NCBI GenBank assembly: GCA_013791935.1
Contig: VMSV01000196.1
Location: 1-64,000, forward strand
Direction of reading: 5' to 3'
Length of the DNA stretch: 64,000 nucleotides
Origin: Desulfobacteraceae bacterium
GTDB lineage: Bacteria; Desulfobacterota; Desulfobacteria; Desulfobacterales; UBA5616
The notes beneath the pieces are model-generated. The model was not told the origin of the DNA. It worked only from the letters and a program-made list of their open reading frames with translations, and ran no database searches. Shown piece by piece: positions 379-51,690 of this stretch (position 1 is its first letter; each line of letters opens with the position of its first letter). The position numbers were made by a program, and so were the translations under genes.

Positions 379-465
379 GCCGGGGTGGTGAAATTGGTAG
401 ACGCAGAGGACTCAAAATCCTCCGGGCGCAAGCCCATGGGAGTTCGATTCTCCCCCTCGGCACCA
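379..465 (+). tRNA. tRNA-Leu(CAA)
   Basis: The 87-base gene folds as a class II tRNA. The acceptor arms GCCGGGG and CCTCGGC pair, and the CCA is encoded. The anticodon stem GAGGA/TCCTC encloses the loop CTCAAAA, so the anticodon is CAA and it reads UUG. The long variable arm is a GGGC/GCCC stem with a GCAA loop. The T loop is TTCGATT. It serves as the integration target of the element that follows: its last 60 bases recur at 19252-19311. Because the element rebuilds the 3' end when it inserts, the 3' half seen here was probably supplied by the element. Confidence 0.97.
406..465 (+). repeat. attL core: 3' part of tRNA-Leu
   Basis: These 60 bases, from the anticodon stem to the CCA end, match 19252-19311 at 58 positions. 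The two differences fall at paired positions of the variable arm (GGGC/GCCC here, GGGG/CCCC at attR), so pairing is kept in both copies. Confidence 0.92.
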
Positions 466-476
466 CAATAAAATCA

Positions 477-510
477 ATGGGTTATGCACAGATGCATAGC
501 CCATTTTTTG
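477..510 (+). terminator. Rho-independent terminator after tRNA-Leu
   Basis: A 12-base stem (477-488 with 493-504, one G-T pair) has a four-base loop and is followed by six T residues. It lies 11 bases after the tRNA. It belongs to the element's left end, because a second tRNA-type terminator follows attR at 19323. Confidence 0.85.
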
Positions 511-640: not shown

Positions 641-1425
641 AACAATAAATTCAATATGTTATAACCATTTTAAGCGTTAGTTTCAAACCATCATTTTTTT
701 GATACCCAACAATATACCCAACACCCTCGACCATATCTGTTCCTTCAAAGCCCAAAGCTATAGGCCCAGAACTGTCTTTTTCGTTATCGTTCTGGGCAAA
801 TTATATTAACATAAAAAAATATTGGTCTGGAACTCAAGATCTCTGGTTCGATTCCTACCGAGCGTATCATTAAATCAAATAGATTGGCCAATTGTATGCA
901 TTCATATTTTTCAAAGAGGATTTTTCAATTTTTTAAGTTTGAAAGCACCTAATCACATCTTTTTAACCTATGAATTGTGTTTTATCGACCCTAATCACAA
1001 GATTTGGGCAAAAAATGCCACCCACAAGATATAGGGTTCTGCCCTCATAATATTTTCGCCGTAATATCCTTTCGTCTAAGTTTTATATTAATTTCTGAAA
1101 GCACAGAATTTCTCGTAAAGAAAAACCAGGACAAAACGGTTAAAAAATCATCAATTAAATAGAGGCGATTAATTGAACCATGAAATTAACTATATTTTGT
1201 CTTGAAGTGCGATAATTAGCATATAAAGCGGCATTTTCAGCTTGTTTTGATTGGTTGTGGCTTTATTTTTTAAAATGATTATAAATGATATCTAATTATT
1301 TTAGAGTTTTAATTTGAATAATTAGTTAACATTTGGTACCTATTGGCAAAATAATTTCAAAATTGGCTTTTTGTGCACAAAACGACAGGGTCTGTATAAT
1401 AACTAAAGTTGGACCAGAGAGCAAA
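641..1425. other. AT-rich stretch without a clear gene
   Basis: I see no convincing coding region here. There is a 9-bp hairpin at 764-797 (GCCCAGAAC and GTTCTGGGC) with no T run after it. A short stretch at 828-862 resembles the end of a tRNA, but its T stem does not pair. The in-frame codons from 1333 (a TTG) upstream of the kinase start are treated as leader. Confidence 0.5.
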
Positions 1426-2634
1426 ATGGATTCTAAAGCTATAACCAGGATAGAATGGCAAAAGTCGAAGACAAGACTTTTCACTTATGACGTCACTGAA
1501 TTCGAAGATAGCGGTCCTTTGGACGATAATGTCGTGTGGAGAGGGGAGGAGTGGCTCAGAGAGTATACAGCTTACCCGGATGGTAGCGGCATAGAACCGG
1601 CGAACTTAACTCTTCTGCATTTCCTTCTCGAGCAATATAACATACCGACTGATATTCTCCCCATTGAGTCCGTTAGGCATATGTCTCCAGAGAAACTAGA
1701 ATCTTTACAGGAGCAAATTTCCGCCCTTGGAGGTCCGGATCGCTTTAAAGCCATAATATCAAAAATCGAACAGCATGGTTTCAAAATACAGGGGTACCTT
1801 GGTGCAGGTGGCTGGGGGATTGTATTTCACATGCTCCGCTCTACTGATCATGCCACGGTCGCACTTAAAATACTCAAGCCCCCATATAGCGAGGAGTGGC
1901 GCAAGCGTTTCCTTCGGGAGGTCGAAATCTTGAGCCTTCTTGCCAACGATCTCAGGTTAGGGGGGCTGCTTGGAGCCCCATTTGATGTGGACGGACTGAT
2001 GTGCCTTCCAATTCGATTTATCAGCGGGCGACCTCTGTCAGAGCTCGCTCTCCCCATCAATACACGTGATGCCCTAGAGATCGTGTGCGATGTGCTGTCC
2101 GTCCTTGACACCTTTCACAAGAAAGGCGTCATCCATCGTGATCTTCATCTTGGTAACGTAATTCTGGGTTCCGATGGGGCACTTGTCGTTGTGGATTTTG
2201 GTGTTGCTCGTCAAGAACAGGTTACAGATTACACCTACACATTTAGACCCGTCGGGGCGATGTCACATTGCGCGCCGGAAAAATGGACGGATCCATCTAC
2301 AGTAGGTGCACCTTCAGACGTCTTCTCTGTCGGTGTCATGTTGTATCGCCTTCTTACTTCTAAGTTCCCTTTCTGGGCTGAAAGCTACATTAGACTATAT
2401 GAGCAAATCAGAAACGGCCGGTTCACTGATGTCAGCGAGGCCAATCCGAACGTTCCGCCTTTCATAAATATCGTGTTGAAGTCGTTGTTGGAACCAGACC
2501 GCCAACAAAGACCAGGGAAAGCCTCAGAGGCTCTCACTATGGTGGGTCATGCCAAAGCACTAGTCGACTTGGACGAAAGACAAAGAAGGAGACGGCATTC
2601 ACCCCAACAATCTGCTCGACGCGGACGCACATAA
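1426..2634 (+). CDS. Hanks-type Ser/Thr protein kinase
   Basis: This is a complete eukaryotic-like kinase of about 402 residues, expected to be cytosolic because no membrane segment is seen. Numbered from the ATG at 1426, it shows the glycine loop GAGGWGIVF near 125-133, the VALKIL lysine near 147, the HRDLHLGN catalytic loop near 236, DFG near 258, and CAPEKW. All catalytic residues are present, so it should be active. About 115 residues of unrecognised sequence come first, perhaps a sensor or substrate-binding part. The tail is rich in Arg. The frame extends back to a TTG at 1333, but the ATG at 1426 has a GAGAG site before it and is preferred. An integron attC site begins 105 bases downstream, so the gene may be a cassette. 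Its target is unknown; stand-alone kinases in mobile elements are sometimes defence genes. Confidence 0.88.
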   Translation: MDSKAITRIEWQKSKTRLFTYDVTEFEDSGPLDDNVVWRGEEWLREYTAYPDGSGIEPANLTLLHFLLEQYNIPTDILPIESVRHMSPEKLESLQEQISALGGPDRFKAIISKIEQHGFKIQGYLGAGGWGIVFHMLRSTDHATVALKILKPPYSEEWRKRFLREVEILSLLANDLRLGGLLGAPFDVDGLMCLPIRFISGRPLSELALPINTRDALEIVCDVLSVLDTFHKKGVIHRDLHLGNVILGSDGALVVVDFGVARQEQVTDYTYTFRPVGAMSHCAPEKWTDPSTVGAPSDVFSVGVMLYRLLTSKFPFWAESYIRLYEQIRNGRFTDVSEANPNVPPFINIVLKSLLEPDRQQRPGKASEALTMVGHAKALVDLDERQRRRRHSPQQSARRGRT

Positions 2635-2738: not shown

Positions 2739-2794
2739 GCCCAACAAAGGCAATACAGCCGATCGCTGCGCTCCGGCTGATTTTTTCGTTAGCA
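2739..2794 (+). other. Integron attC recombination site (intact)
   Basis: An inverse core GCCCAAC (2739-2745) fits RYYYAAC exactly. It is followed after a short spacer by the inverted arms CAGCCG and CGGCTG around a short loop, and ends in a GTTAGCA core (2788-2794). Length (56 bases), order and imperfect hairpin are those of short attC sites such as the aadA type. No intI gene is in the window. A cluster of attC sites without the integrase is known as a CALIN. Confidence 0.72.
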
Positions 2795-2809
2795 TAAAAT
2801 GAGGAAATA

Positions 2810-3397
2810 ATGACATTCGAAACAGCAAAAATTATAGCTGCTTTTGGTGGTTTTGGACTCGGGATACTAAATTTGGGTATTTCAATTTACAAAGAATTTA
2901 TAAAGAGACCCAAGTTAGAACTGGAAATTGTAATGTCCAATGTTTTTTACGTGAATGAAGGGGAATACAATTTTCAAATAAATATTTCATTAATTTCAAA
3001 AAATGGCCCCTGTTATTTAAAGGATATTTTTATAAAGCATCCTACAAACTGTATTGGCGGATACTCATCTTCAAATATTGTTAATTTCAATAAAGCTATC
3101 CAATATACATCAGCAGACCTTTTAGATAATTCTCAGGAAGAATTTAAAGATAATCTTTTAAAATTATTCAAAAATTCTATCTCCATGAGGGATTTAAAGA
3201 TTGATGACAACTCCAGGAAATCGATGACTTTTGCTGATCGATTAATTACAAGACGTGAAATGGACGGCTATGAAGATTTCCCTCTGAAAAATTGGATCAT
3301 TGTTATTGATTACGGGGATAAAACAATAACCAAATCTTTAACTTGGAATATTCATTCTAAAAGTAAAAAAGAAGGTTGCTGGGATAATCATCTATGA
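2810..3397 (+). CDS. Unknown membrane-anchored protein (cassette gene)
   Basis: The 195-residue product is not recognised. An N-terminal hydrophobic helix (about residues 7-27) is followed by a soluble, beta-rich, strongly charged part that looks like a small extracytoplasmic or membrane-facing domain. The ATG lies 15 bases after the attC core at 2788-2794 and has a GAGGAAATA ribosome site. The stop is 10 bases before the next (split) attC site. That spacing is the classic layout of a single-gene integron cassette. Codon use is AT-rich compared with the chromosome. Confidence 0.75.
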   Translation: MTFETAKIIAAFGGFGLGILNLGISIYKEFIKRPKLELEIVMSNVFYVNEGEYNFQINISLISKNGPCYLKDIFIKHPTNCIGGYSSSNIVNFNKAIQYTSADLLDNSQEEFKDNLLKLFKNSISMRDLKIDDNSRKSMTFADRLITRREMDGYEDFPLKNWIIVIDYGDKTITKSLTWNIHSKSKKEGCWDNHL

Positions 3398-3412
3398 AAT
3401 TATAAAATGCTA

Positions 3413-4116
3413 ATCGGGTAGCCGGGGGTTATTAACCCCCAGCCCCCACACCACCCGGCATTCGGGTCCGCACCGGGCGGTTCGCGAAGATACCGGGCCA
3501 TAGCCGGGTAATGACCTAAAACAGTTCTTTGAAAAACTGACGGCAACTGCTTTTGATCATCAGAAGCACCTTGTCCCATGACGCGCCTGTTTAGTTGCTC
3601 CCCCGTTCGGGTTCATCGCATTTCAGAGCTCATGGGGTATGCCACTGTTCTTCGCGTTTGGCCCTTCAGTGGGGTGAGACCTCCGCCGCCTCCGCATATG
3701 CGGGTCGCAGCTCGTTTCCGCTTGTCATTCCGCCAATAACAATGTCCGCACCTACTATGGCCTCTGCTGACTTCTGCCTGATCACCCTGCATGTTGCCAT
3801 GCAAAGCGCTGTCTTTCGACCGCATGTCAGGCAGATCTCCCCGGATAAGAACGTGAATTTCACTACACAACCGCAGCATTTACCCTATCTCCTGAATCCC
3901 GGGCTTCGTCATGTTGTGCTGACTTACCCGGAGACTGGGCCTTTTATGCTATTTCTGATCGTCGGTTCATAGTTTTGCGCTCGGGCTTCCTTCAGACCTT
4001 TCCTCGCCGAAACGCCCTTGCCGTCGGCTAATGTTTGTGTCAATGTCTTTCGACATTGACAGGATTCACACATAGGGGACTTACACCCCATTAATTCACG
4101 CCCATGCCGGGCGTAC
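3413..4116 (-). mobile_element. ORF-less group II intron relic inserted in attC
   Basis: Read on the minus strand, the segment begins GTACGCCCGGCATGGGCGTG, close to the GTGCG start of group II introns. It ends in a domain V-like hairpin (about 3450-3483: CGCCCGG and CCGGGTGG arms, GACC tetraloop), a domain VI-like hairpin (about 3421-3440) and the terminal CTACCCGAT. At 704 bases it is far shorter than a full intron of over 2 kb. Domain IV keeps only what may be the first codons of a reverse transcriptase (a minus-strand ATG near 3580), so the maturase is deleted. Removing the segment restores an attC inverse core, TGCTAAC. Insertion after minus-strand ATTGT in an attC hairpin is the known habit of class C-attC introns. 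The small ORFs inside are not genes. Confidence 0.72.
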
Positions 4117-4173
4117 ACAATGCTTTTTCAGCGGAGCGCAAAAAACAGCGCCCGCTGAAAAGCGGCGTTATAT
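4117..4173 (+). other. Integron attC site split by the intron (right part)
   Basis: Joined to TGCTA at 3408-3412, this segment gives an inverse core TGCTAAC and spacer AATGC. Long arms follow: TTTTCAGCGG pairs fully with CCGCTGAAAA, and GCGC with GCGC. One A is unpaired, as expected for the extrahelical base of attC. The core GTTATAT is at 4167-4173. The intron at 3413-4116 separates the two parts. Confidence 0.7.
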
Positions 4174-4268: not shown

Positions 4269-4844
4269 ATGACTGGAACTCTTGACTCAGAGGAAAAAAG
4301 AAAACTACATTCCGAAATTAATCAGTTAGTAAATCAAAGATTTGTGTTAAATGGCGCCGCGATCACTCTTTTTGGCGTTATCACAGCTTGGGCCATCCCC
4401 AAAAATCAGTCACTACCAGACCCGAATGCTGCAAAACTGGCCTTTACCGCATCTATATTATTAATAATATTGTTATTTGCCCTTTACCTTGTTAGTCACC
4501 TTGCGAGACTTACCACACGAACACTCACAACTTATTTGATTGTACGTGGCGAATCACAATGGGAGTGTGATTGGAAAAATTATCGTGATAAAAAGAGCTA
4601 CATTGCATACACAAAAAGTCAAACGTTACTTTTCTTAGTGCTTGGCTTTTTATCCACAATTGCACCATTAATTTTCCTATCCATATTTAAAATCACTCTC
4701 AATCCAAAAGAAGCGCTTTATGCTTTAGTGCTTTTTGAGCTTTTGTACACAGTTTTTGTTGCAGGGATGGGGTTCGGCAACTGGTTTTATCCGGAGCAAG
4801 ATATTGAAAACCGATGGAATGAAGTGTTGAATAATAATCGGTGA
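4269..4844 (+). CDS. Unknown four-helix membrane protein
   Basis: The 191-residue protein has a charged N-terminal helix and four hydrophobic segments (about residues 28-46, 66-90, 118-140 and 146-168). It ends in a short charged tail. No family is recognised. A strong AAGGAG site lies before the ATG. It is followed 38 bases later by another four-helix protein and then by a radical SAM gene on the same strand, so the three may be co-transcribed. Pairs of small multi-helix proteins are common as membrane effectors in defence cargo, but nothing here proves that. Confidence 0.75.
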   Translation: MTGTLDSEEKRKLHSEINQLVNQRFVLNGAAITLFGVITAWAIPKNQSLPDPNAAKLAFTASILLIILLFALYLVSHLARLTTRTLTTYLIVRGESQWECDWKNYRDKKSYIAYTKSQTLLFLVLGFLSTIAPLIFLSIFKITLNPKEALYALVLFELLYTVFVAGMGFGNWFYPEQDIENRWNEVLNNNR

Positions 4845-4882
4845 CACATGATACTCATTCAAACAACTTTTAGGACTTTGAT

Positions 4883-5536
4883 ATGGATTTATTCAATAAG
4901 ATTACTATCTCCAATTTAATTTGGTATATCGTTCCTGGACTGGGAATGATTTTTTTTGTTTTATTTCCAATATTAGCCTTAAACCCTCACATTGTGAAAT
5001 TATTTTATGAGCAAATTGGTGAAATTGGCTTATTAATTTTAGGAACCATTCTTGGGTTTCTATTTGAAGGTTTGCGCTTATATAGGTTCAGGCCAGGTTA
5101 TTCGACAATAAAAAAGGGATTCTTTGATGAACTTACGAAAACTATTGGAACTGATTTGAATCCTTACTTTGTCCAATCGCATGTGGATGATTTTGCTAGA
5201 ACAAAAAATTATGTGGGTCTAAGCTTGCATCATGCAATTTGGATAATGTTAGGTCAATTTACCATATTGTTTTTATTCGAGGCCCTTTTTTGGGGAATAA
5301 TGGCCATATATAATTATTATTATATCACTCAATACTATTCTCTATTCGGTTTGAATATATCAAGAATAGAATACATAACATATTGCGGAGCATTCTCGGT
5401 CACTTTTTTATCAATTGGTTTGCGGTTAATGGTGACCTCAACTCAAGATCAGAAAAATACAAATAATATGTTTTTAAATTTTGCAAAACAGTATCGACAT
5501 GACCTTCAAAAATTACTTAATATGGAGGTAGATTGA
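4883..5536 (+). CDS. Unknown four-helix membrane protein
   Basis: The 217-residue protein has hydrophobic segments at about 12-33, 46-66, 118-148 and 163-185. A charged loop lies between the second and third, and a Lys/Arg/His-rich tail follows. I do not recognise the family. It shares layout but no obvious sequence with the preceding membrane protein. It lies between that gene and the radical SAM gene, with 59 bases to the latter. GC is very low, as in the rest of the cargo block. Confidence 0.75.
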   Translation: MDLFNKITISNLIWYIVPGLGMIFFVLFPILALNPHIVKLFYEQIGEIGLLILGTILGFLFEGLRLYRFRPGYSTIKKGFFDELTKTIGTDLNPYFVQSHVDDFARTKNYVGLSLHHAIWIMLGQFTILFLFEALFWGIMAIYNYYYITQYYSLFGLNISRIEYITYCGAFSVTFLSIGLRLMVTSTQDQKNTNNMFLNFAKQYRHDLQKLLNMEVD

Positions 5537-5595
5537 TAAAATGTTTGTAGGTTATGAATAAATTATATTAACCAGATTATCATAGACTAAATATT

Positions 5596-6492
5596 ATGCC
5601 GGAAATTAAACAACATTTTTTTTATTTTGAAGGTAAAACAGCCGATTTTTTCCCATCAGTAGGATTAAAACTATCGGGAAATTGCAGATTCAAATGCCCC
5701 TTTTGTTGTGAGCCAAATCGAACTCAACAAGTATATCCCTTGAATAATTTTATTTCCATAGCAAACATTCTTAAAAAATTGGGCACAAGACGATTATGTT
5801 TTACGGGGGGCGACCCGCTATCACATAAAGATATAGGGGCCTTGCTGCAGTACACCAAGTCTTTAGATTTTTTTAATTTGTTATTAACAACAGATGCCAA
5901 GGCTCTAAAAGAAAAGCAAAGAGAGGTGATACCATTTGTTAGTGCCGTGCGTTTTAGTGTTCATGCAATTGGTTCAGAACATGATAATATAGTTGGCTGT
6001 CGTGGCTCTTTTAGAGCTACAGAAAAAATGATTGATGTCTTGCACGCAGAAAAGATTCCCTGCTACGTCACAACAGTTATAACTACAAAAAATATTATGT
6101 TCGTTAAAAATATTTTAGAATGGTGCGTTAAAAATGGAATTCAATCATATTTTATATTCGGTCTCATGCGAAGCGGTTTAGGCAATGACTTTATAAGAAA
6201 GTATGGGCAAGTTTCAGAACAAGAAATTTCAAATATTATTTCTATACTAAGAAATAAATATTCTCCTGAAGATATCGAAATTATATATTATGACTACTAT
6301 AAACAGGCTGATTGTGTATTGGTATATGGTGATGGAAAAATTATAATTGATCCATATCCAAAGCCGCCTACTTTTCAACTAGAAATTGGAAATATTTTCT
6401 CAGATACTCGAGAAGACATTTTGAAGTTTTTTTCACACGATCCAAAGAATTACGATGGTTATGTTAATCACTTTTTGAAGCACAAGAAATAA
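5596..6492 (+). CDS. Radical SAM enzyme, function unknown
   Basis: The 298-residue protein has the radical SAM cluster CRFKCPFC (Cys30, Cys34, Cys37; spacing CX3CX2C). FTGGDPL near residues 72-78 is the SAM-binding GGE-like motif. The family cleaves S-adenosylmethionine reductively to a 5'-deoxyadenosyl radical. No C-terminal SPASM cysteine cluster is present, so it is a minimal single-cluster enzyme of the general MoaA/PqqE shape. Prokaryotic viperins are of similar size, but the CNYxCxFCF context is not seen here, so I do not call it one. It is convergent with the methyltransferase operon (38-base gap). The substrate cannot be told from sequence. Confidence 0.85.
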   Translation: MPEIKQHFFYFEGKTADFFPSVGLKLSGNCRFKCPFCCEPNRTQQVYPLNNFISIANILKKLGTRRLCFTGGDPLSHKDIGALLQYTKSLDFFNLLLTTDAKALKEKQREVIPFVSAVRFSVHAIGSEHDNIVGCRGSFRATEKMIDVLHAEKIPCYVTTVITTKNIMFVKNILEWCVKNGIQSYFIFGLMRSGLGNDFIRKYGQVSEQEISNIISILRNKYSPEDIEIIYYDYYKQADCVLVYGDGKIIIDPYPKPPTFQLEIGNIFSDTREDILKFFSHDPKNYDGYVNHFLKHKK

Positions 6493-6530: not shown

Positions 6531-8390
6531 TTAAGGTTTCTTTGGGCTTAAAATTATTAAATATTCCATAACATTTTTTTGGGCGGTTCCGCCATGTGAT
6601 TTATGAACAAATTTCGCAGAATATGAGATAACTTCACAGCCTGTTTTCTGATAGACGCGTTCAACCACCTCACATATATCGGCTTGACCATTATCAGAGT
6701 AGCTCCAAGCGCAATGCCAACCTCTATTCAATATCTTTATAATAATATCTATTATTGTAGCTGTGGGCCTGCTGTTAGTTTTTGTGAAGAATTCAGATCG
6801 GAACCTATCGTTAGGTTTTGGAGTCAGGCCTATACCACTACAAGAAGGATATCTATATTCCACGAGAGTCTCTAAAACGTGATAAAAACGGCTATATTCT
6901 TCTCTTTTGTAAGGAGCATCAAGGTAAACTATAACTGGCACATTATATATCAGCGTATCTAAAGTACATAATGCACTTTCCCAAGGGCCAGGAATCGTTT
7001 CAATTTGATTTTTTGTAGAATGGCTTATTTCTGATAGATTGAGTAACCTGGCTGTAAATTCATGAGTTATTGATTGTGACCTTTTATATAAAATATCAGA
7101 TATATTGTTTTCGTTTAGAGCTAAATAATTTCTTATTGGAGGTTGAGCAAAATGCCCACCATAAGTTGTCCCCAAGAAGCTTGTAGTAGTAATCAAAGCT
7201 CCTAAAGCCCACATTCTCTCTTTCTTTTCTTTTATTATGTCAATTGCATAACGCAAACTATCAATTTCCAAACATTGTCTGAGCCCAAAAAATACATTGG
7301 CAAAATATGTTGTAAATAGACAATAAGGGTAAATTGAATTGTCTTTCCTTCTAATTTGAACCTCTGAGGTTGGGGACCAATCTTTTGTATTACTTGGTTT
7401 GCACAAAACTGGGAACTCGCGGACAAATCTTTTATAATCTTCAAGCAAAGAATCGTCTATCTCTCTACAAAAAACATCCTCTTCGTTTTCAATTTCATCG
7501 GCTAATAATGATTGTAACTCGATAAAATGTTTTTTTGCAATTGGCAAAATTCGCGATAGAAGATCTTTTGCTCCATTCCGGCTAAAACCTCCGCCATGAA
7601 CTACTGACAATATTCTGCAAAACTCTTGAGCATCGGACGAGTACGTTTTCCATATTTTATTAGTGGCACCCGAGACAATTCCAGAACCACACATTAAATC
7701 GACTACTACTCCAGACTCTGGGAGCACGGAAGCGATAGCTTCAACAATAAAACCACATAATGCTCTTTTTGATCCCATGTAGTAGGCTGACCGGGCAAAT
7801 TTGTTGATTTCGGTATTATCGATTATTTTTGCGCGATTTAACTGCGCTTTCACATACTCAATCACTTTGGGGTTAAGAGTGGCGATTGAAGCTTCTGATA
7901 AGTATTTACATTTATTTTTATTTATAAGATTATTTTCAGTCGATATCAGTTTATTATGTGATGATATTAAATTTTTTGTTGCTGAATAAAATAATGGATC
8001 TGTTATAGAATCTTTATTCAATAAATCTATTATCGTATGAGGGTTTATTCGGATAGTATCTTGTTCAAACAATTTCTGAGATCTAGGTTTTTCATCATTT
8101 TTATCACCACACAAAATGATTGAGTCTATCAAGGCTCTTACATCTTTCTTTAATACGAATGAGTGCTTCTCAAACTGATAGGTGGGAAGAATACCTACCT
8201 CTAATATATATTTTAGCTTTTCAGGATCGATGTCCTTTCCTAATTCATTTTGGAGGAAGTCTCTAATGCATTTCTCATTAATAAAAAGGTCCATTTTAGG
8301 AGAATTGGCTGATTTGTTCGGCAAATCAATATCGTCTTTATAAGTATGAACATGAAAAGAAATATTTGTTTTTGTCAATTTATCTTCCAT
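6531..8390 (-). CDS. Large D12-class adenine DNA methyltransferase (DAPY variant)
   Basis: The 619-residue protein carries the D12 order: a GSK motif (YMGSKRALCG near 205), SAM motif I (DLMCGSG, 231-237), and motif IV as DAPY (491-494) in place of DPPY. The words after motif IV (EYSRFYHVLETL) resemble those of the upstream methyltransferase (RSYGHYYHLPETI), so both probably modify adenine N6. About 200 N-terminal residues precede the enzyme and contain a small helical, possibly DNA-binding part. The Pro to Ala change in motif IV is unusual but may be tolerated. It is last in a three-gene leftward operon, five bases after the HAD gene. No restriction endonuclease is recognisable nearby. Confidence 0.85.
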   Translation of the reverse strand: MEDKLTKTNISFHVHTYKDDIDLPNKSANSPKMDLFINEKCIRDFLQNELGKDIDPEKLKYILEVGILPTYQFEKHSFVLKKDVRALIDSIILCGDKNDEKPRSQKLFEQDTIRINPHTIIDLLNKDSITDPLFYSATKNLISSHNKLISTENNLINKNKCKYLSEASIATLNPKVIEYVKAQLNRAKIIDNTEINKFARSAYYMGSKRALCGFIVEAIASVLPESGVVVDLMCGSGIVSGATNKIWKTYSSDAQEFCRILSVVHGGGFSRNGAKDLLSRILPIAKKHFIELQSLLADEIENEEDVFCREIDDSLLEDYKRFVREFPVLCKPSNTKDWSPTSEVQIRRKDNSIYPYCLFTTYFANVFFGLRQCLEIDSLRYAIDIIKEKKERMWALGALITTTSFLGTTYGGHFAQPPIRNYLALNENNISDILYKRSQSITHEFTARLLNLSEISHSTKNQIETIPGPWESALCTLDTLIYNVPVIVYLDAPYKREEYSRFYHVLETLVEYRYPSCSGIGLTPKPNDRFRSEFFTKTNSRPTATIIDIIIKILNRGWHCAWSYSDNGQADICEVVERVYQKTGCEVISYSAKFVHKSHGGTAQKNVMEYLIILSPKKP

Positions 8391-8395
8391 CTATA

Positions 8396-9337
8396 TCACA
8401 ACTTATTCAATTCTTCTTTATATCTTCGTGCGTGAATAACAGTTTTCAACGCCTCAATAGCGCCATCAAGTACACCCCTTCTAGCTACGTAATCACTACA
8501 TTTTTTTGCTTCTTCTGAGGCCGTTTCAACAGAGACACCAATTCCTGACCATGATAGCATTTCAGCATCGTTGTCATTATCCCCAATTCCAAGAATTTGC
8601 TCTCGTGTAAGTCCAAGGATATTGGCAACAATTTTCAAAGCCTCACCTTTATTGCAATTTATAGGTTTTACTTCAATATAAGTACTGCCATGCGTAAATG
8701 AGATATCAGCTATCCCCTTCAAGCTCTTACTTATATCAGCCATTACCTGCGTATTGCCCAAGGTGTGAATTACAACTGCAGATGGGCTTATTGATTTATC
8801 AATTTCAGACCATTCCAGCCATTTAACAGGCATGAAATTATATTCCTTATAAGGTTTATCAACAGATGACCACCCGATAGCGTGCTCTTCAAAATCATCT
8901 TCTCCAAACCATTTACAGCAGTATGCGATAACTTTCACTCGAAATTTTGAAGAAATTTGAACTACCCGAATCATCGACTCATTTGATATTTTTTCTTGAT
9001 GAATAGGCTTATACTTTTTTAAGATTTGACAATCTTTACCATATTTGTACTTTTTTTTAATTATGACACTCCCGTTGTATAATATTATCGGAGTTCCATT
9101 TTTAATCGGGAGCTTCGCAATCAAATGCTCTGCTCCTGACAGTGTGCGGCCTGTCGCTATGATTATCTTAATGTTAGAATTTTTAAATTTATTGGCGAAA
9201 CTTAATATTTTTTCTGGAAGTTCAGATTCATTAGATTCTAGTAACGTCCCATCAAGATCTACGGCAATAAGCCTAATCTTCGAGAAGGGTCTATACAATT
9301 CTAAATTATCTATTGAACTAGGTAATAAATTAGCCAT
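8396..9337 (-). CDS. Cof-type HAD-family phosphatase
   Basis: The 313-residue enzyme has HAD motif I DLDGTL (Asp27 and Asp29), motif II around ATGRT, a conserved Lys in KGEAL and the motif IV run GDNDNDAEML. The long insert between motifs II and III is the C2b cap of the Cof/sucrose-phosphatase subfamily. These enzymes act on small sugar or nucleotide phosphates. The gene overlaps the end of the preceding methyltransferase by eight bases and lies five bases before the next, so it is translationally locked between two DNA methyltransferases. That placement is not one I know. A role in nucleotide or modified-base metabolism is an inference. Confidence 0.9.
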   Translation of the reverse strand: MANLLPSSIDNLELYRPFSKIRLIAVDLDGTLLESNESELPEKILSFANKFKNSNIKIIIATGRTLSGAEHLIAKLPIKNGTPIILYNGSVIIKKKYKYGKDCQILKKYKPIHQEKISNESMIRVVQISSKFRVKVIAYCCKWFGEDDFEEHAIGWSSVDKPYKEYNFMPVKWLEWSEIDKSISPSAVVIHTLGNTQVMADISKSLKGIADISFTHGSTYIEVKPINCNKGEALKIVANILGLTREQILGIGDNDNDAEMLSWSGIGVSVETASEEAKKCSDYVARRGVLDGAIEALKTVIHARRYKEELNKL

Positions 9338-10328
9338 TTTTAACTATATATAGATGGTGCCTTGTTTTAATTGGAGATATTTTGGTTCTATATCCCTTAC
9401 AATCAATGATAAAATCATTAATTTTTCCAAATGGAGAAAGGATTTCTTCAATATTTTTTGAAGGAATGATACCATTATCAGCATAATGAAAAACCAACAA
9501 TTTAAACTTTGCGTTATTTAGAACATCCAATAAAGCTTGCTTTGATTCTATCTTGTTATTAAATTTTGATTTAGTGTTAATTTTAATTGGGATGCCTGAT
9601 TGACCATGCACTACAGGAGTCCCTTCTAAGGCTATTGTCTCAGGCAAATGATAATAGTGACCATATGAACGTTGATTGTAGGGGGGATCAAGATACAGAA
9701 TATCAAAATCGCGTCTTTTAACAAGTTCTTCTGCGGTTTCATTAAAACAATGGCCTTTTCCGTTTAAAGAAGCAGGCATTATAAATTGGAAACGGAATTG
9801 GTTCAAAGCCTTTCGGTGCCATTTTTTTAAAAATGCATAATAAGTGCCTGCTGTATTCGCGACTTTATCTAGACTGTTTATAAGAGAGGCGAGCATTACA
9901 GCTTTTTCTTCCCCATTAATCCAGCCTTTTGCCGACCAAAATGCAATTGCCCTTCTACATGATTGAATCTTTTTTGCGTTATAATTTGTAAAATACTGTC
10001 TATTTTCAGAATATTCCCTTACAAACCAACCATTCTTTGGAGGTAGCGAGTTCATAAAGGTTTCCAAATCTGTTAGGTTATTAAGGTTCAGTTTGTTAAT
10101 AATTTTCTTAAAAGATAGTGGCTTTTCATATTTTAGTCGTGCTTTTTGGAATAGAAAAGGAAATTTCAAAATATCTCCACTCCAAACATCATAACCCATC
10201 GATTTAAAATGTGATGCAACTGAGCCTAAGCCCCCAAAAGGATCGCAAAAGGAACCTATTGGTATTTGCCTTGAAACCAATTCATATATATTATTTATTG
10301 TAGATATTTTAGAACCTATATATCTCAT
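9330..10328 (-). CDS. D12-class adenine DNA methyltransferase
   Basis: The 332-residue protein opens with RYIGSK (motif X of D12 enzymes). It continues with CDPFGGLGSV (SAM motif I, about residues 28-37) and has a canonical DPPY at 214-217 followed by NQRSYGHYYHL. This is the Dam/FokI-type alpha order, indicating N6-adenine methylation. It is the first gene of the methyltransferase-HAD-methyltransferase operon, which is transcribed leftward from the AT-rich region at 10329-11085. The target site cannot be read from the sequence. All catalytic motifs are intact, unlike the DAPY partner. Confidence 0.9.
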   Translation of the reverse strand: MRYIGSKISTINNIYELVSRQIPIGSFCDPFGGLGSVASHFKSMGYDVWSGDILKFPFLFQKARLKYEKPLSFKKIINKLNLNNLTDLETFMNSLPPKNGWFVREYSENRQYFTNYNAKKIQSCRRAIAFWSAKGWINGEEKAVMLASLINSLDKVANTAGTYYAFLKKWHRKALNQFRFQFIMPASLNGKGHCFNETAEELVKRRDFDILYLDPPYNQRSYGHYYHLPETIALEGTPVVHGQSGIPIKINTKSKFNNKIESKQALLDVLNNAKFKLLVFHYADNGIIPSKNIEEILSPFGKINDFIIDCKGYRTKISPIKTRHHLYIVKNG

Positions 10329-11085: not shown

Positions 11086-11913
11086 TTAGGCTTTGCCATT
11101 GGAAGGGGTTTTAAAAATTTCCTCAACAACCCCTTCAAAAGATGAAACCGTGTCCGCCAACCCTATTTGAACTGCCTCTCCACCGCTAAAAAGGCCAGCC
11201 ATGGTGTCATTAACCATTTTTTGATCAAGTTTCCGGTTTCTGGCCACTGCCTCCACAAGAATCTGATAGGCGTAATCAACCTGTTTCTGAATAGCCTCCC
11301 TGCCCCGATCCGATAAGGGGGCATCCGATGACCTTTCATTTACTTTTTCACCGGCATATACAGTGGTATATTTTACTCCAAATTTTTCATTGTAGCTGGA
11401 TAGATCCTCATGAACCGCAATAATTCCGATAGACCCAACTATCGCAGTCCTGGAAAGAAATATTTTATCCGTTGCCGAGGCAATCAGATACCCTGCTGAA
11501 AGGGCCTTTTCGTTTGCCATGGCATAGATAGGTTTAATTTCCCTGGAGTTGTATATTTCATCTGCAAAATCGAAAACACCGGCAATGTCTCCCCCTGGTG
11601 TGTCCAGGTCAAATAGGATGGCCTTGACATCCGGGTTTTTTATAGCCGAACGAAAATCTTTCCGAAGATCCATGTAAGAGGTGCGCCAACTCCATCCGGA
11701 TCTCTTATAAACCATCCCACCGTTTACAGAAATCACGGCAAGGCCGTCAGAAACCTCCAGGCAGCTTGTAGAGTCTTCAAACATGGACACGGAGGTTTCG
11801 GTATTTTGATTGTTTAATGCGACAAGGATTTCTCTTGCAGCCTCGATAGAAACCGCCAAAGGTTTTTGGATCAGGTGAAAGGGAGAAAAATGGTTTTCAT
11901 TCATTTTAAACAT
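11086..11913 (-). CDS. S49-family (SppA/phage head protease-like) serine peptidase
   Basis: The 275-residue protein contains the ClpP-like S49 fold: DTPGGDIAG, a nucleophile Ser139 in KALSAGYLIAS, and a Lys190 in YAGEKVNE that fits the second member of the Ser-Lys dyad. No signal peptide is visible, which argues against a periplasmic SppA and for the phage type that matures capsids. It is the last gene of the leftward phage-like block, 132 bases after the coiled-coil protein. In a satellite it could process helper capsid proteins; that is inference. A second in-frame ATG lies three codons in. Confidence 0.82.
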   Translation of the reverse strand: MFKMNENHFSPFHLIQKPLAVSIEAAREILVALNNQNTETSVSMFEDSTSCLEVSDGLAVISVNGGMVYKRSGWSWRTSYMDLRKDFRSAIKNPDVKAILFDLDTPGGDIAGVFDFADEIYNSREIKPIYAMANEKALSAGYLIASATDKIFLSRTAIVGSIGIIAVHEDLSSYNEKFGVKYTTVYAGEKVNERSSDAPLSDRGREAIQKQVDYAYQILVEAVARNRKLDQKMVNDTMAGLFSGGEAVQIGLADTVSSFEGVVEEIFKTPSNGKA

Positions 11914-13629: not shown

Positions 13630-15303
13630 TCAGATTTCAAGTTTAAGCCCAATTCCATAATATCGATAAACACCCGAGACCCTTCTTTTCTCAAAGCGCT
13701 TGGTCATCATGGACCCAAAGGCCTTCATTTTTGGCACCCGTTTTGAAATGTTCAGTTCAAACCATTCCTCGAAGGCCTCGTATAATTCTTTTGCCCCGGC
13801 GGTCGCATCCGGGTTGATGATGCAGCAGTCATCCAGAAAATCAGCCAGCATGTCAGAATCCCTTTTGAATTCTGCGGTTGCTTCCACAACTTTAAGAGGC
13901 GGGCAAAGGCCTTGCTTTTGATACAGATGGCACCCCCGGATCAGCCAAGCCAGTATTTCGGGTGCCTCATCCTTCATTTTCTCAAACAAATGCTTATCAG
14001 CCCGCCGCTCATTGTCTGCCTGGGGCTCACGATTGACAAAGGACACCTCAAAACGCACTCTTAAGCACCTCTCCCAAAAAGCGAAGTCGTCCGCCGGTGC
14101 ATTCGGGATATGGTTTGTGGATAGGATAAGGGTGTGGGTCGGTTCAAATTTGGTGAACATCTTATCGTGGGGAAGGCGTGCGATCACGGTATCGTCACTT
14201 GACAACCACTTGACCCTGGCCGGTGAAATCTTTTGATGAGGGTCCGTTTCCGACGCAATGGCAAGGTTAACCCGGTAAAGCATCATCAGATCCGGTGAAG
14301 GCCCGGAGGAATTTTTAAACCGTCCCTGGTCGAGAAGCATCTCGCTTGGAATGACGGTTGCCATTGGACCCAGGATGAACAGCAATATTTTGATCAGAAG
14401 GCTTTTGCCGTTTCTGCCCTGGCCTTCAAAAATGATAAATATGTGATCCTTGTTTTTTCGAAGAAGGGTCATGCCAAGCAGCCGCTGGAGGAACAAAACC
14501 ATTTCCGGATCACCGTTCATGGTTTCATACAGAAACTTGAGGAATCTCTTTGGGGTACCATACCAATCAGCCAATGGATGAGGGATGCATTGGGATTTCA
14601 GATCTTCCGGGAGACCTGGCCGGACAAGGCTTGAAACAAGGTTGTAAATATTTTTCTCGCAATGGGAAAAGCAAATTTCATTGGGCTCCGTGTCGAACTC
14701 TTCATTTAAAACGCCAAGGCCATTATAAGTGGTATGGGCGAAAAACACACACTCGTTCCGGCCTTTGTTTGTCCGGAGCCATCTCGCCAGTTTCAGGCAC
14801 CCCTTCATGGTTTTTTTCAGCCTGAATATTTTCGGGCTTTCCGGATCAAGTTCTTTGATCTCCTTGTCAATGTCAAAGGCCTCTTCCAAGAGCCATTCCA
14901 CGATGCCCTCAATAGCTGCCAGATACTGCCCTTTTTGATCAATTTGCCAGTTCGGCCCTTTGTCGTAGAACTCCCATTGACTGGTGGTTTTGTTGTGCAA
15001 AAAACATTTTCTATATCTGAACTTATAGAGTTCTGAGACGCCAACAGCCCCGGTATCGTAGTACCCGGTATCCCGGATTAAGGCCTTTGCGCTTTCCCTT
15101 GATGGCTGGATACTTGTGGACCCAGATCCACCGTCATCCAGATCCGGTCCGGATTCTTCGGAAACCCTTAGCTTGACCACATCGGCGATCTGCCTATCGG
15201 TTTGCTGTAGAATAAAAGAATCAAGGCATGATACCGGGAAGCCCGGATCTTCGTCCGCCTCACCGTGTCCTGAGACCCTATATTCAATATTATCATCAGG
15301 CAT
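13630..15303 (-). CDS. D5/P4-type primase-helicase (SF3 ATPase)
   Basis: The 557-residue protein has the phage/plasmid primase C-terminal architecture: a D5_N-like region, then the SF3 helicase with Walker A GQGRNGKS near residues 293-300, a Walker B-like stretch ending ASETD, and a sensor motif in LILSTNHIPN. The N-terminal part has no obvious archaeo-eukaryotic primase motif, so it may act as helicase with a reduced or separate priming function. In P4 the related alpha protein binds iterons and unwinds the origin; the GGTGAC array starts four bases after this gene. The zinc-ribbon HTH gene lies 15 bases upstream, so the two are probably one operon. Confidence 0.88.
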   Translation of the reverse strand: MPDDNIEYRVSGHGEADEDPGFPVSCLDSFILQQTDRQIADVVKLRVSEESGPDLDDGGSGSTSIQPSRESAKALIRDTGYYDTGAVGVSELYKFRYRKCFLHNKTTSQWEFYDKGPNWQIDQKGQYLAAIEGIVEWLLEEAFDIDKEIKELDPESPKIFRLKKTMKGCLKLARWLRTNKGRNECVFFAHTTYNGLGVLNEEFDTEPNEICFSHCEKNIYNLVSSLVRPGLPEDLKSQCIPHPLADWYGTPKRFLKFLYETMNGDPEMVLFLQRLLGMTLLRKNKDHIFIIFEGQGRNGKSLLIKILLFILGPMATVIPSEMLLDQGRFKNSSGPSPDLMMLYRVNLAIASETDPHQKISPARVKWLSSDDTVIARLPHDKMFTKFEPTHTLILSTNHIPNAPADDFAFWERCLRVRFEVSFVNREPQADNERRADKHLFEKMKDEAPEILAWLIRGCHLYQKQGLCPPLKVVEATAEFKRDSDMLADFLDDCCIINPDATAGAKELYEAFEEWFELNISKRVPKMKAFGSMMTKRFEKRRVSGVYRYYGIGLKLEI

Positions 15304-17593: not shown

Positions 17594-18841
17594 TCATGCC
17601 TTTTCAGTCCTTTTCAAATCATAAAATTCCGAAATCTTTTGTTGACTTTTTTCCAGCCGTTTAACAGCAGCTTTAAAGGTGTCCGGCTGCAAATGCGCAT
17701 AACGCCGGACCATCGCAAAAGAACTATGACCCATCAATCCTTGCAATATATATAGATCGGTGCCAGCCGCCGCATGCCAACTTGCAAACGAATGCCGGCA
17801 ACTGTAAAAAACCAGTTTATGCCTTCTGTCAGTGATTCCGTCATTAAAACCTTTTTGATCAACCACCTCCTGGAACAGACGCGGTGTTTCAAGATATGGC
17901 CTTTTCCCGGATCTCATGAAAATCAATGTATCTGGCTTGGCGTCTTGGGACTTTGAATGACGATCGACCAGAACTTGCTTTAAATCATCGGTCATGAATG
18001 CATGTCTGTTTTTGGAGTTCTTGGTATCCAGAATTTGAATTTGTTCGTTTCCAAAATCTATTACTCCCCAGGTCAATTTTAAAATTTCACTGGATCTCAG
18101 ACCGCACCGGAAAGCCAACAAAACCATTGTATATGTGTCCAGGTCTTTGGTTTTTAATTCAGATAGGAGATTGTCGGCTTCATCCCGAGAAAAAAAGCTT
18201 AACCGACTGTTATCCGCTTCCGGAGGCTTAACCTGGGAAACAGGATTCTTCCCATAAAAAATGTCATTGCGAATCGCATAATTAAAAACCTGCCGTGCAA
18301 CAGCAAGAGCATATTTAATGGTACGGGGAGTAAGATGCAAGTCACCCATGTTTTTTTTGATCATTTCAAAATGAAAAGGTGCTATTTTCCCGATCGGAAG
18401 GTTTCCGATCACGGGCGCTAAATATCTCTCAAAGAGTGGGACCTCGCGTTTCCATCCTTTTCGGGTTCTTTTGGTGGCTTTGTTAATTTCTAAATATTTA
18501 CCCCACACATCGGAAAATTTAATGTTTTTTCGCTCTATTTCTTCGTCAGCCTTTTTTTGGGCCTTCTCATCTTTATTTTGCTTAAGTCTTTTAGCCTTTA
18601 AAGTAGTCGGTCCTGTACCATGGGTTTTGTTCTCTTTGAGCTCGTGAACTTTGCTTATGGCTTTTTCAAGGGTCATACCATCAAAGAGCCAGCCAAATCC
18701 TTCCTCAAGCCTCGTCTCACCAACAGTGTGGCGATATTGGTAAAATACATCGCGCTGGGTTTTTATCCCCTTTTTTCGGGTTCTGGTAGGGTGGTAGCGG
18801 AACCTTAATCCCTTAACTGATGTTTGGTGCCATGTGAACAT
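17594..18841 (-). CDS. Tyrosine recombinase (integrase) of the tRNA-Leu element
   Basis: The 415-residue protein has the parts of a phage integrase: an N-terminal arm-binding domain, a core-binding SAM-like domain, and the catalytic domain. Visible are box I (FRCGLRSSEILKLTW, catalytic Arg), a YSCRHSF box II in which the usual His of HxxR is Tyr, LMGHSS, and the nucleophile in RRYAHL. It reads leftward and starts 410 bases inside attR. The Tyr for His change occurs in some active integrases. It is the obvious enzyme for insertion into tRNA-Leu. Confidence 0.93.
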   Translation of the reverse strand: MFTWHQTSVKGLRFRYHPTRTRKKGIKTQRDVFYQYRHTVGETRLEEGFGWLFDGMTLEKAISKVHELKENKTHGTGPTTLKAKRLKQNKDEKAQKKADEEIERKNIKFSDVWGKYLEINKATKRTRKGWKREVPLFERYLAPVIGNLPIGKIAPFHFEMIKKNMGDLHLTPRTIKYALAVARQVFNYAIRNDIFYGKNPVSQVKPPEADNSRLSFFSRDEADNLLSELKTKDLDTYTMVLLAFRCGLRSSEILKLTWGVIDFGNEQIQILDTKNSKNRHAFMTDDLKQVLVDRHSKSQDAKPDTLIFMRSGKRPYLETPRLFQEVVDQKGFNDGITDRRHKLVFYSCRHSFASWHAAAGTDLYILQGLMGHSSFAMVRRYAHLQPDTFKAAVKRLEKSQQKISEFYDLKRTEKA

Positions 18842-19251
18842 TTATTCCCCCGGTATTTTGCCAATTTTAAATGGTGGCTAAGCATGGGTGGTGGTTAAAT
18901 TAATAATCATTTAATAATAAATAGTTACGTTTAATCAACTCTCTTTTTATACTTGATCTAAGGCTTTCTTTTCAGGGAAATCCTCCGGGTTAAAAAACGG
19001 TGGCGAAGTGGTGGTTTCTCCATAAAGCCTTGCTCTGTAAGGCCTTACGGGAAGCGCCTTGGGCGATTTTTAAAAAAATAATTCATTTTGATTTTGATAA
19101 ATTCCTCCGTAAATTTCGCCACCAAAAAACCACCATTTAATTATGATTTTGGATGATTTTAGATTTTGAAGGATGAAGCACACATTAGATGTATATAAAT
19201 GATATGTCAACAAAAAATGACAGAATGTTGAAATACGTGATGGTCAATTTT
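18842..19251. promoter_or_regulatory. Integrase leader and right-end arm region
   Basis: The 410 bases between the integrase start and attR contain no gene. AACCACC-type words stand at 18887-18897 and 19008-19016 (inverted) and at 19118-19135 (direct, 11-base period). They match those just inside the left end at 537-556. The region likely holds the integrase promoter and the right arm sites used with attR. Confidence 0.55.
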
Positions 19252-19311
19252 GAGGACTCAAAATCCTCCGGGGGCAACCCCATGGGAGTTCGATTCTCCC
19301 CCTCGGCACCA
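19252..19311 (+). repeat. attR: 3' copy of tRNA-Leu
   Basis: These 60 bases match 406-465 with two differences in the variable arm. There is no 5' half, so it is not a working tRNA. Under the usual model of insertion into a tRNA 3' end, this is the original host 3' half, displaced by the element. The tRNA-type terminator that follows at 19323 supports that. Confidence 0.92.
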
Positions 19312-19322
19312 TTATAAAATCA

Positions 19323-19355
19323 AGGGGTTAGCCTTTTTGGGTTAACCCCTTTTTT
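19323..19355 (+). terminator. Displaced original tRNA-Leu terminator
   Basis: An AAGGGGTTA/TAACCCCTT hairpin with a short loop is followed by a run of T. It lies 12 bases after attR, the same spacing that the tRNA-Leu terminator has after the intact gene. Confidence 0.8.
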
Positions 19356-19567
19356 GTGCCGAAATCGCGGATTGTGCCCGAAATTGTGTCCATGAGTGAT
19401 TTTAGGTAGGCCTCCTGGCGCTGTTCGGCAAGTATTAGATCCGCATCATTGACGATATTGTATCGGTCAAATACGGCACGCGTTTTATGGCCTGAAATCA
19501 TCATTGCCACTCTTTCGGGGATGCCGGACCGGATCATGTTCCGGACCGCGGTTCTGCGGAAATCATG
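19328..19567 (-). pseudogene. C-terminal stump of another tyrosine recombinase
   Basis: The minus frame reads [17 protein letters not shown], then [17 protein letters not shown]. These are the HxxR box, the GH(K/T) box and the catalytic Tyr box of a phage integrase. The reading ends just at attR. Upstream of the HDFRR box the similarity stops abruptly near 19567, so the N-terminal two thirds are gone. It is not part of the 415-residue integrase and must come from an earlier element at the same tRNA. Confidence 0.85.
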
Positions 19568-44942: not shown

Positions 44943-45263
44943 GCTGATCCTCCTTCAAATGGTTTTAGATCTTTGGGCTTGGGTTTTCTTGTTCATTCCA
45001 GGGTTTTTTTCATACGGTCTTTTTATGTGGCCGTTTTCGAATCGTAGGACATTATAGATCCAACCCGAAGATCCGGCAAGCATAAGATGATCGGGGGGCG
45101 TGAAATAAATGTTTGTTAACCGGGCCATCCTTAAAATGGTGCTTGCAAAATAAAAGGAATCCATTTATGAAATAAAAAACGTAAATAATATTTACATTCA
45201 CATCAAAATCCCCCTGTTAGCGACCATCTATCCTAACATATGATTAAGGAAAGGAAATTTACC

Positions 45264-46559
45264 GTGTCTGAACCGATTCAAATGCCAATCCCCTCCAAAC
45301 CGTTTTACGGCTGGATCAATGTGCTTTTGCTGACCTTTATTTATATGGCCACCACCGGCCTGGTTTTCTATGCTTTTTCCGTCATTTTTCCGGTGATGCT
45401 TAAGGCCACCGGCTGGAGCCGCGGGGATGCCTCCATCGCCATATCCGTCAACATGCTGGCCGGTGGATTTCTGATCCCTTTTGCAGCCAAATTTCTGAAC
45501 AAATACGGCAGCCGGAAAGTGATCATCGTGGGGCTGGCTATTCTGTTTCTGAGCCTGCTGCTCCTGTCCACCGCCACCACGAAACTCTGGCATTGGATCG
45601 CCATCTGGGGTGCGATCATTCCCATCGGGCGGGTGCTTTGCGGACTTTTGCCGTCCCAGGTGAACATCATGATGTGGTTCAGCCGCAAGCGAGCCATGGC
45701 CATAGGACTATTAATGACCGGTGCGCCCATTGGAGGAATTTTCGCGCCACCGGTCTACACCTGGTTTATGAATTATATGGGGGGCTGGCGATCCGGATGG
45801 TTTCTATCCACCGGCGTGGTGTTGATGGCGTTGGTCATGAGTTTCTGGGTCAAAAGCAAACCCTCGGACATGGGGCAGCATCCTGACGGCATCGTCCCGG
45901 GCTCGGTGCAGGCAAACGGCCAAGTCACTCCGCACGGCTCTCGGACTTATCGAACCACCGTCGTGTGGACCCTTCGGGAGGTGCTGAAAACCCGGGTTTT
46001 CTGGCTCATCACCGTGGTCAACATCACCCAGGGAATGGGACTGGGTCTGATCGTCTACCATGGCGTGCTCCACATGACGGATGTGGGGTATTCGGCCATG
46101 AATGCTGCGTATATTCTTTCCATGATCATGGGAAGCAGTGGCGTGGTGCGTTTCCCCATCGGCTGGCTGGGGGACCGGGTGGAGCCCCGTTGGATTATCT
46201 TCAGCGCTCTTATCATCATGATCATTGGTTTTATCGGCATCTGGCAAGCCCCGAGTTTTGGCCTTCTCATGATTTTGGGACCCATCTACGGCATTTCCTA
46301 CGGAATCATGCTCACCATCATGCCCACCATCACAGGCAACTATTTCGGGCCTGAAGTTTACGCCAACATCAACGGAGCTGTGGGACCTGTTTTAACCGTC
46401 ATCGGCGCTGCGGTTCCCACCATCGCCGGGTATGCCGTGGAAAAAACGGGCAGCTACAACGAGGTTTTTCTGGTGATTACGAGTCTTATTGTTATAGGAT
46501 TGGTTTGCAGCGCATTCCTGGCCCCGCCCCATAAAAAAGAGGTGTCATCGTATTCTTAA
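45264..46559 (+). CDS. OFA-family MFS transporter, copy 1
   Basis: The product has 431 residues from the GTG at 45264, which has a GGAAAGGAAATTTACC site; the ATG at 45240 has none. Twelve hydrophobic segments and the MFS loops (SRGDASIAIS, GWLGDRVEPRWI) place it in the oxalate/formate antiporter-like major facilitator group for small carboxylates. The substrate is unknown. It is followed after 30 bases by a close paralogue of the same length, so the pair arose by tandem duplication. Confidence 0.88.
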   Translation: MSEPIQMPIPSKPFYGWINVLLLTFIYMATTGLVFYAFSVIFPVMLKATGWSRGDASIAISVNMLAGGFLIPFAAKFLNKYGSRKVIIVGLAILFLSLLLLSTATTKLWHWIAIWGAIIPIGRVLCGLLPSQVNIMMWFSRKRAMAIGLLMTGAPIGGIFAPPVYTWFMNYMGGWRSGWFLSTGVVLMALVMSFWVKSKPSDMGQHPDGIVPGSVQANGQVTPHGSRTYRTTVVWTLREVLKTRVFWLITVVNITQGMGLGLIVYHGVLHMTDVGYSAMNAAYILSMIMGSSGVVRFPIGWLGDRVEPRWIIFSALIIMIIGFIGIWQAPSFGLLMILGPIYGISYGIMLTIMPTITGNYFGPEVYANINGAVGPVLTVIGAAVPTIAGYAVEKTGSYNEVFLVITSLIVIGLVCSAFLAPPHKKEVSSYS

Positions 46560-46589
46560 ATCAAAACCTAAATCGAAAGGAACTGAGCC

Positions 46590-51486: not shown

Positions 51487-51490
51487 GCCT

Positions 51491-51635
51491 ACAAGTTATC
51501 TCAAAATAATCTTTTGGCCCAAACTCTTCGTTGTCGGCAAATTTTAAATCCTCGAAATACTTAAGTATGTCTCCGGTTTAAAATTTACCTCCGCCTCGAT
51601 TTTGAACCAAAATCTTTATTTTGAGATGGCTTGTA
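51491..51635. repeat. Long palindromic intergenic element (about 145 bases)
   Basis: The outer arms (51491-51524, ACAAGTTATCTCAAAATAAT onward, and about 51602-51635) are imperfect inverted copies. Inside them AAATTTTAAA pairs with TTTAAAATTT, and ATACTTAAGTAT is self-complementary, so the whole block can fold as one long hairpin. A partial match to an arm lies at 36110-36130. This looks like a MITE or REP-type repeat family of the genome. Confidence 0.65.
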
Positions 51636-51651
51636 ACAACAACCCCATGTG

Positions 51652-51690
51652 AAAGGCCGGGATTTTTGCTGAAAAATTCCCGGCCTTTTT
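51652..51690 (+). terminator. Hairpin terminator between the lipoprotein and DapF-like genes
   Basis: GAAAGGCCGGGATTTTT pairs with AAAAATTCCCGGCCTTT around a short loop, followed by a run of T. It can stop transcription from the left. From the right it may serve the dapF-like gene as well, though the T run there is short. Confidence 0.75.

Follow-up and report, generated by a model that had tools for sequence, protein, structure and literature searches.

An ORF-less group IIC-attC intron in a two-attC cassette array within a satellite-like island at a tRNA-Leu gene

Results

A tRNA-Leu island that carries cassettes

The window, i.e. the whole 64 kb stretch of DNA analysed here, contains an island near its left end. 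An intact tRNA-Leu(CAA) gene (379-465, plus strand; found by ARAGORN and Rfam tRNA) marks the left boundary, and its 3' part belongs to a 79-base att repeat (406-484, plus strand), of which the right copy (19252-19330, plus strand), a direct repeat at 93.7% identity, has lost the 5' half of the tRNA. The two repeats lie about 18.8 kb apart and enclose the cassettes, a head-maturation-protease-like S49 peptidase (11086-11913, minus strand; PHROG 53, 3e-77), a P4-family primase/helicase (13630-15303, minus strand; TIGR01613 at 163 bits, cut-off 108.7; PHROG 1156) and a tyrosine integrase (17594-18841, minus strand) that is not an IntI. The tRNA-side cargo includes the cassettes, of which one encodes a defence-like kinase, a radical SAM protein and two adenine methyltransferases of the D12 class, the latter flanking a HAD hydrolase (6531-10328, minus strand). 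An imperfect direct repeat of 39 bases (85%) lies inside both island ends (540-576 and 19119-19157) and could represent arm sites of the integrase.

With tRNA att repeats accompanied by an integrase, and with a P4-type primase, the island has two of the features that define P4-like satellites, and it looks like such a satellite or like a reduced prophage. The sequence-only reading had the cassettes captured by a tRNA-targeted satellite; they do lie between the tRNA-Leu repeats that also enclose the integrase, the P4-family primase and the head-protease-like gene, but which way and how they would have been captured is conjectural, and the island is a putative satellite. A lesser possibility that we take seriously is that the island is a prophage in decay, or was pieced together by several tRNA insertions, and grew up around cassettes that were already chromosomal. 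It would account for a head-protease-like gene in an island in which no capsid, portal or terminase was recognised among the larger ORFs scanned with Pfam and PHROG, for the lack of close viral relatives (the primase has none in the viral collection), and for two fragments at the island ends. One of these, just inside the island (601-640), is the 3'-terminal part of another tRNA (T arm, acceptor, ...GGGTTCGAATCCCGTTGGGATCACCA) and hints at stacked insertions; the other, a 69-aa ORF just outside the right att repeat (19328-19537, minus strand), looks by eye like the C terminus of a further tyrosine recombinase and would be what is left of an additional island at this tRNA. The clean 79-base att repeat, the island's own integrase and the P4-family primase speak against this alternative.

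A contig binned with another genome of the collection (G072; JAHIFE010000151.1) matches the window at strain level (99.97% from position 976 on) and differs in the 150 bases left of 976, beside the contig end. A recent transfer of the island between families was considered and rejected because the contig runs into the chromosomal flank of the window at 99.7%. A DNA probe from the flank matches relatives of family f1 and not of f4 (a protein search with the flank was uninformative); given this match and the continuity of the flank, we regard the contig as misbinned and as coming from the same species as the window. Outside the island, the window also holds tandem related MFS transporter genes (45240-47885; 69% DNA identity) and a long imperfect inverted repeat downstream of the dapF region (51490-51688).

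Two attC sites, one of them interrupted

The gene of cassette 1 (1426-2634, plus strand) encodes a Ser/Thr protein kinase (Pfam Pkinase, 1e-30) similar to the PD-T4-6 phage-defence kinase models of PADLOC (1.2e-45). It is followed by attC1 (2739-2794, plus strand), with inverse core GCCCAAC, L stem CAGCCG/CGGCTG and core GTTAGCA, and, 16 bases after this core, by the start codon of the cassette 2 gene (2810-3397, plus strand; taken from the ORF list), whose 195-aa product matched no family in Pfam, PHROG and PADLOC searches. Behind it lies attC2, on the plus strand and in two parts: AATGCTA on the left (3406-3412) and 4117-4173 on the right, ending in the core GTTATAT (4167-4173). TGCTA (3408-3412) and positions 4117-4118 together give the inverse core TGCTAAC. 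Upstream of cassette 1, AAAGTTGGAC (GTTGGAC; 1408-1414, plus strand), 18 bases before the kinase ATG, agrees in six of seven positions with GTTGGGC, the core expected from the inverse core of attC1; it may weakly be proposed as the core of cassette 1, a match of this kind arising there by chance in about 5% of cases by our own estimate. The genes beyond attC2 (4269-6492, plus strand), which encode 191 aa, 217 aa and a radical SAM protein of 298 aa, are followed by no further attC in that interval according to our model and represent either a last cassette or island cargo. The radical SAM protein (5596-6492) weakly resembles prokaryotic viperins (PADLOC pVip, 6e-12, far under the NCBIfam cut-off). 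A promoter scan of the array gave 20 predictions where 14.5 were expected, no clearer than shuffled sequence.

To locate attC sites, we used a covariance model (R1) built from 10 attCs, six of class 1 integrons and four of this order, none of them from the window. A home-made attC score without covariance model, which separated attCs poorly from background, had been abandoned in favour of R1, and searching by core motifs together with folding energy proved too strict. R1 recovers class 1 sites, all training ones included, and returned exactly two matches on both strands of the window up to E=10, namely attC1 (20.0 bits, E 0.019) and the portion of attC2 to the right of the insert (4117-4168; 16.6 bits, E 0.13). 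As the latter match covers this portion only, the rejoined attC2 is expected to score above 16.6 bits. When the whole genome is searched, the 20 bits of attC1 correspond to an E of just 1.4, so that the call rests on context too.

The core and the inverse core of a single cassette are complementary to each other. The attC1 core GTTAGCA (2788-2794) occurs once in the window; its exact complement TGCTAAC is absent from the intact window and appears once the insert is removed. This complementarity is stronger evidence for the two attCs than the R1 scores. In addition, the bottom strand of the rejoined attC2 folds at -18 kcal/mol (z -4.1 against shuffles). Two attCs around a single-gene cassette, and an inverse core restored by joining the flanks, are what the sequence-only reading had described; both points hold, down to the coordinates, and the attC covariance-model search that it proposed matched both sites, the cut one included.

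We consider it quite improbable that the attC1 hairpin is a terminator or a product of chance, so that the array would consist of a single attC (SALIN) next to island genes. The fold of attC1, taken alone, is no better than that of shuffles (z -0.8), which together with the genome-wide E would suit this explanation. On the other hand, it is one of just two R1 matches in 64 kb, its core is the exact complement of the inverse core of attC2, an ATG follows that core by 16 bases, and it resembles an intron-containing attC in another member of the order (G023).

A cluster of attCs within a few kb and away from any integron integrase counts as a CALIN from two sites upwards, the threshold given in PMC9024848. 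The pair described here is thus a CALIN, and one that holds a IIC-attC intron; both kinds are already known. No IntI is encoded in the window, the sole IntI-like match being the island integrase (50.9 bits to TIGR02249, cut-off 265). The host genome, a metagenome bin of 270 contigs with 5.8% contamination, encodes two full-length IntI proteins (345 aa on contig C23 and 360 aa on contig C266; 430.7 and 385.4 bits, cut-off 265) as well as partial ones, and R1 finds further attC matches on several of its contigs, including three on one (C208) and two on another (C117). The earlier description of attC sites without an integrase is accordingly right for the window and wrong for the genome, and with two IntI elsewhere in the genome the CALIN could be served in trans.

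The insert in attC2 is a group IIC-attC intron

The two parts of attC2 are separated by an ORF-less group IIC-attC intron of 704 nt (3413-4116, minus strand, 5' end at 4116), identified by RF02001 and RF01998 and by ends and target as in relatives. On the minus strand the intron runs GTACGCCCGGCATGGGCGTG...CCCCCGGCTACCCGAT, and after its removal the flanks join as TATAAAATGCTA/ACAATGC, i.e. TGCTA/AC. The target on the bottom strand of attC2 reads ATTGT/TAGCA, and the intron runs antisense to the genes in the cassettes. The boundaries were set by comparison with the RT-bearing intron of the Klebsiella class 1 integron plasmid p1B18064, which splits the arr-2 attC, starts GTACGCCCGACATGGG after TTGT and ends CTACCCGAT before TATGC. 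Its ends (GTACGCCC...CTACCCGAT) recur in the window intron, as does its target phase (GCATA/AC; TTGT/T). IIC-attC introns are known to insert at TTGT/T of attC bottom strands, CALINs included (PMC7923331), and the claim of an insertion after ATTGT in the class C-attC manner is confirmed by this shared phase.

All intron domains lie on the minus strand. Part of domain I (3849-4013) is matched by RF02001 (group-II-D1D4-3; 125.9 bits, cut-off 32) and part of domains II/III (3724-3808) by RF01998 (group-II-D1D4-1; 53.7 bits, cut-off 35). ACAA at intron nt 79-82 (4035-4038), complementary to the IBS1 TTGT, is by its position a putative EBS1. Domain IV is a stub whose DIVa-like hairpin (3576-3635), defined by covariation, surrounds the former RT start codon (ATGAGCTC). 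Domain V (3447-3483) was delimited by an alignment of 27 introns and by folding, and domain VI with the intron 3' end ...CCCCCGGCTACCCGAT (3413-3446) by the same alignment. The intron-model search proposed along with that for attCs thus succeeded for the D1D4 families, and domain V was found by alignment: RF00029 is reached neither by the window intron nor by the RT-bearing copies on C49, a contig of the host genome, and in G142.

With ORFs that reach no more than 88 aa on its own strand and 125 aa on the opposite one, the intron encodes no RT, in agreement with the earlier description of a 704-base ORF-less minus-strand group II intron. The class C intron-encoded reverse transcriptase, absent here, is present in the sister copy on C49, and, since its own RT is missing, we class the window intron as a IIC-attC derivative of the ORF-less kind. 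In domain V the window copy has CGAATG where relatives have CGCATG, and alignment and folding show one distal-stem pair to be broken, so that this copy may no longer splice. A second ORF-less copy in the same genome, on contig C20, has other changes in domain V and also a broken pair; domain V of the C49 copy is intact. The intron had been called a relic. The broken pair agrees with this; its full length, its intact ends, its membership of an ORF-less lineage and its RT-bearing sister do not, and the term is too simple.

An ORF-less lineage in the order

The C20 copy is 85% identical to the window intron (95% over the 3' half), and several fragments were found in the same genome by DNA search. 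Across the order, 77 of 194 genomes match the intron, mostly via shared ribozyme parts. Among complete introns, for which both ends could be read, five are RT-bearing (1924-3830 nt) and more than ten are ORF-less (355-909 nt), the latter in nine genomes and with three copies in one of them (G146). TTGT/T or TGGT/T is found at 18 of 19 distinct related insertions; a clear full attC is present at part of these 19 only, while the remaining sites could be terminator-like hairpins or attCs in decay.

What unites the ORF-less copies is the domain-IV stub, which can be aligned across ten copies from eight genomes; a profile of its middle segment finds the aligned copies and more in five further genomes. 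RT-bearing introns match only the first part of the stub, around the RT start, and its last part resembles the RT C-terminus and is followed by domain V. The stub therefore corresponds to the RT start plus the RT end without the body, i.e. several copies share one ORF deletion with remnants of both RT ends. It is common to copies at unrelated targets in several families of the order and rare beyond it (four weak matches among genomes of the phylum). Deep branches of a tree of the ribozyme parts are poorly supported, which is why the lineage is argued from the shared stub. Between the window intron and the C49 copy, identity is 94% over the first 300 nt and 82% over the last 104 nt, so that recombination with local RT introns is likely; the 5' part is indeed more like the local RT intron than like distant ORF-less copies. 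Such recombination, as read from these identities, may blur the inference of a lineage.

Two ORF-less copies in G251, of 498 and 476 nt on different contigs, have perfect ends and are otherwise 95% identical. A transposing form without domain I was considered for them and rejected, their internal domain I-III deletions being different. Exact domain-V matches on three IMG/VR contigs place some introns in predicted viral or proviral contigs, and RT relatives of these introns also occur in a few viral contigs.

The hairpin around the former start codon (CCATGAGCTCTG...CAGGCGCGTCATGG), which can also form in the RT-bearing sisters, has changed on both sides at 11 of its 18 pairs among 15 introns. 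Covariation in this set is 0.434, compared with 0.226 ± 0.021 after shuffling (0 of 500 shuffles) and at most 0.126 for slid controls; for the ORF-less copies alone it is 0.320, compared with 0.177 ± 0.018 (0 of 500). The slid controls carry more weight than the shuffles because shuffling leaves relatedness in place. In group II introns the RT binds chiefly to DIVa, the subdomain located at the RT start. A hairpin kept despite the loss of the RT would be as expected of an intron that is served in trans.

Relatives with an RT, for which the sequence-only reading had advised a search, do exist. The C49 copy has both intron ends around an intact 446-aa RT (YADD; TIGR04416 at 412 bits), and there are the p1B18064 intron and the five complete RT-bearing introns of the order. 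An RT relative at E <= 1e-60 is present in 6 of 18 genomes with ORF-less copies, several of these RTs being partial or fragments; the remaining genomes yield distant RTs or fragments only, at looser thresholds. Some ORF-less copies are therefore likely orphans, or else the missing RTs fall into assembly gaps.

Given these data, the window intron is most likely, as far as sequence comparison can tell, a member of a non-autonomous IIC-attC lineage moved in trans. A dead relic, left in attC2 by an RT-bearing intron whose ORF disappeared after insertion and with no mobility in trans, appears unlikely to us. The broken domain-V pair, the RT remnants on both sides of the stub, the lack of a close full RT in most genomes with ORF-less copies and the differing internal deletions of the two G251 copies would all be in keeping with decay. 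Against it, the same stub, deletion and covarying hairpin recur at different attC targets in many families, and this genome has two copies and G146 three; one stub common to the copies disfavours independent ORF losses in place. We give hardly any credence to a single insertion whose intron-bearing attC was then copied around by IntI and not by retrotransposition in trans. Cassettes are mobile and the insertions always lie within attC-like sites, as this would predict; yet attC arms and 3' exons differ between copies, which makes the insertion events distinct, and an attC split by 700 nt should serve IntI poorly.

Discussion

Taken together, we propose that the locus is a two-attC CALIN in a P4-satellite-like island at tRNA-Leu, the second cassette of which was locked by a IIC-attC intron of an ORF-less lineage inserted in trans, and we put the probability of this reading at roughly 70%. 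An IntI encoded elsewhere in the genome would probably have brought the cassettes into the island. The intron lineage would have lost the RT body and retained the ribozyme and the domain-IV hairpin, the expected place of RT binding; a sister RT such as that of C49 would most likely have acted in trans on the splicing and insertion of the window intron. Its RNA would have reverse-spliced into the bottom-strand hairpin of attC2 at TTGT/T, antisense to the cassette genes, and excision at attC2 would thereby have been lost, which would lock the cassette with the 195-aa gene.

In its general form we hold the proposal with less assurance, and only somewhat above even odds: a MITE-like, non-autonomous IIC-attC lineage of about 350-900 nt, devoid of an RT and equipped with a conserved RT-binding-type hairpin, would parasitise attCs across many families of one order, be moved in trans by RT-bearing relatives and leave cassettes frozen. 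An attC-specialised lineage, if real, would amount to a retroelement that parasitises a DNA recombination system and can lock or break cassettes without carrying a gene; since they encode no protein, such introns are invisible to annotation. The hairpin kept at the lost start codon offers a way to test how a single RT can act on many intron RNAs. Three layers of dependence would meet at this one locus, namely an intron without RT, a cassette array without integrase and a satellite-like island.

Each separate ingredient is known already: CALINs have been described as holding IIC-attC introns (PMC7923331) and as occurring in phages (PMC9892861), and the mobilisation in trans of introns that lack an ORF is likewise on record (PMC2882425). 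We found no paper on ORF-less IIC-attC introns as a lineage, which is weak evidence of absence because the main IIC-attC literature is not open and lay outside the search.

In comparison with P4-like satellites, the island shares the tRNA-targeted tyrosine integrase, the P4-family primase and the small size; it differs in its head-protease-like gene, and neither capsid-interference genes nor a helper phage were identified. CALINs occur in phages and prophages (PMC9892861, PMC9024848), and the present locus, too, has two attCs in a phage-related element with no intI close by, whereas the element here is a satellite-like island at tRNA-Leu and one attC is split by an intron. With the IIC-attC introns S.ma.I2 and that of p1B18064, the window intron has in common the ends, the TTGT/T phase, the antisense orientation and alignable domains V and VI. 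In contrast to them it lacks an RT, its domain IV is a stub of about 260 nt, and the ORF-less form recurs as a lineage. The closest parallel to such a lineage is the TeI3 group of Thermosynechococcus elongatus, where 17 ORF-less introns derive from one ORF deletion and are mobilised by the RTs of other introns (PMC2882425). A single ORF deletion with N- and C-terminal remnants, many sites and RT-bearing sisters are shared by both cases. The T. elongatus introns are, however, not IIC-attC introns and do not target attCs, while the copies described here are spread over many host families and their mobility is presumed.
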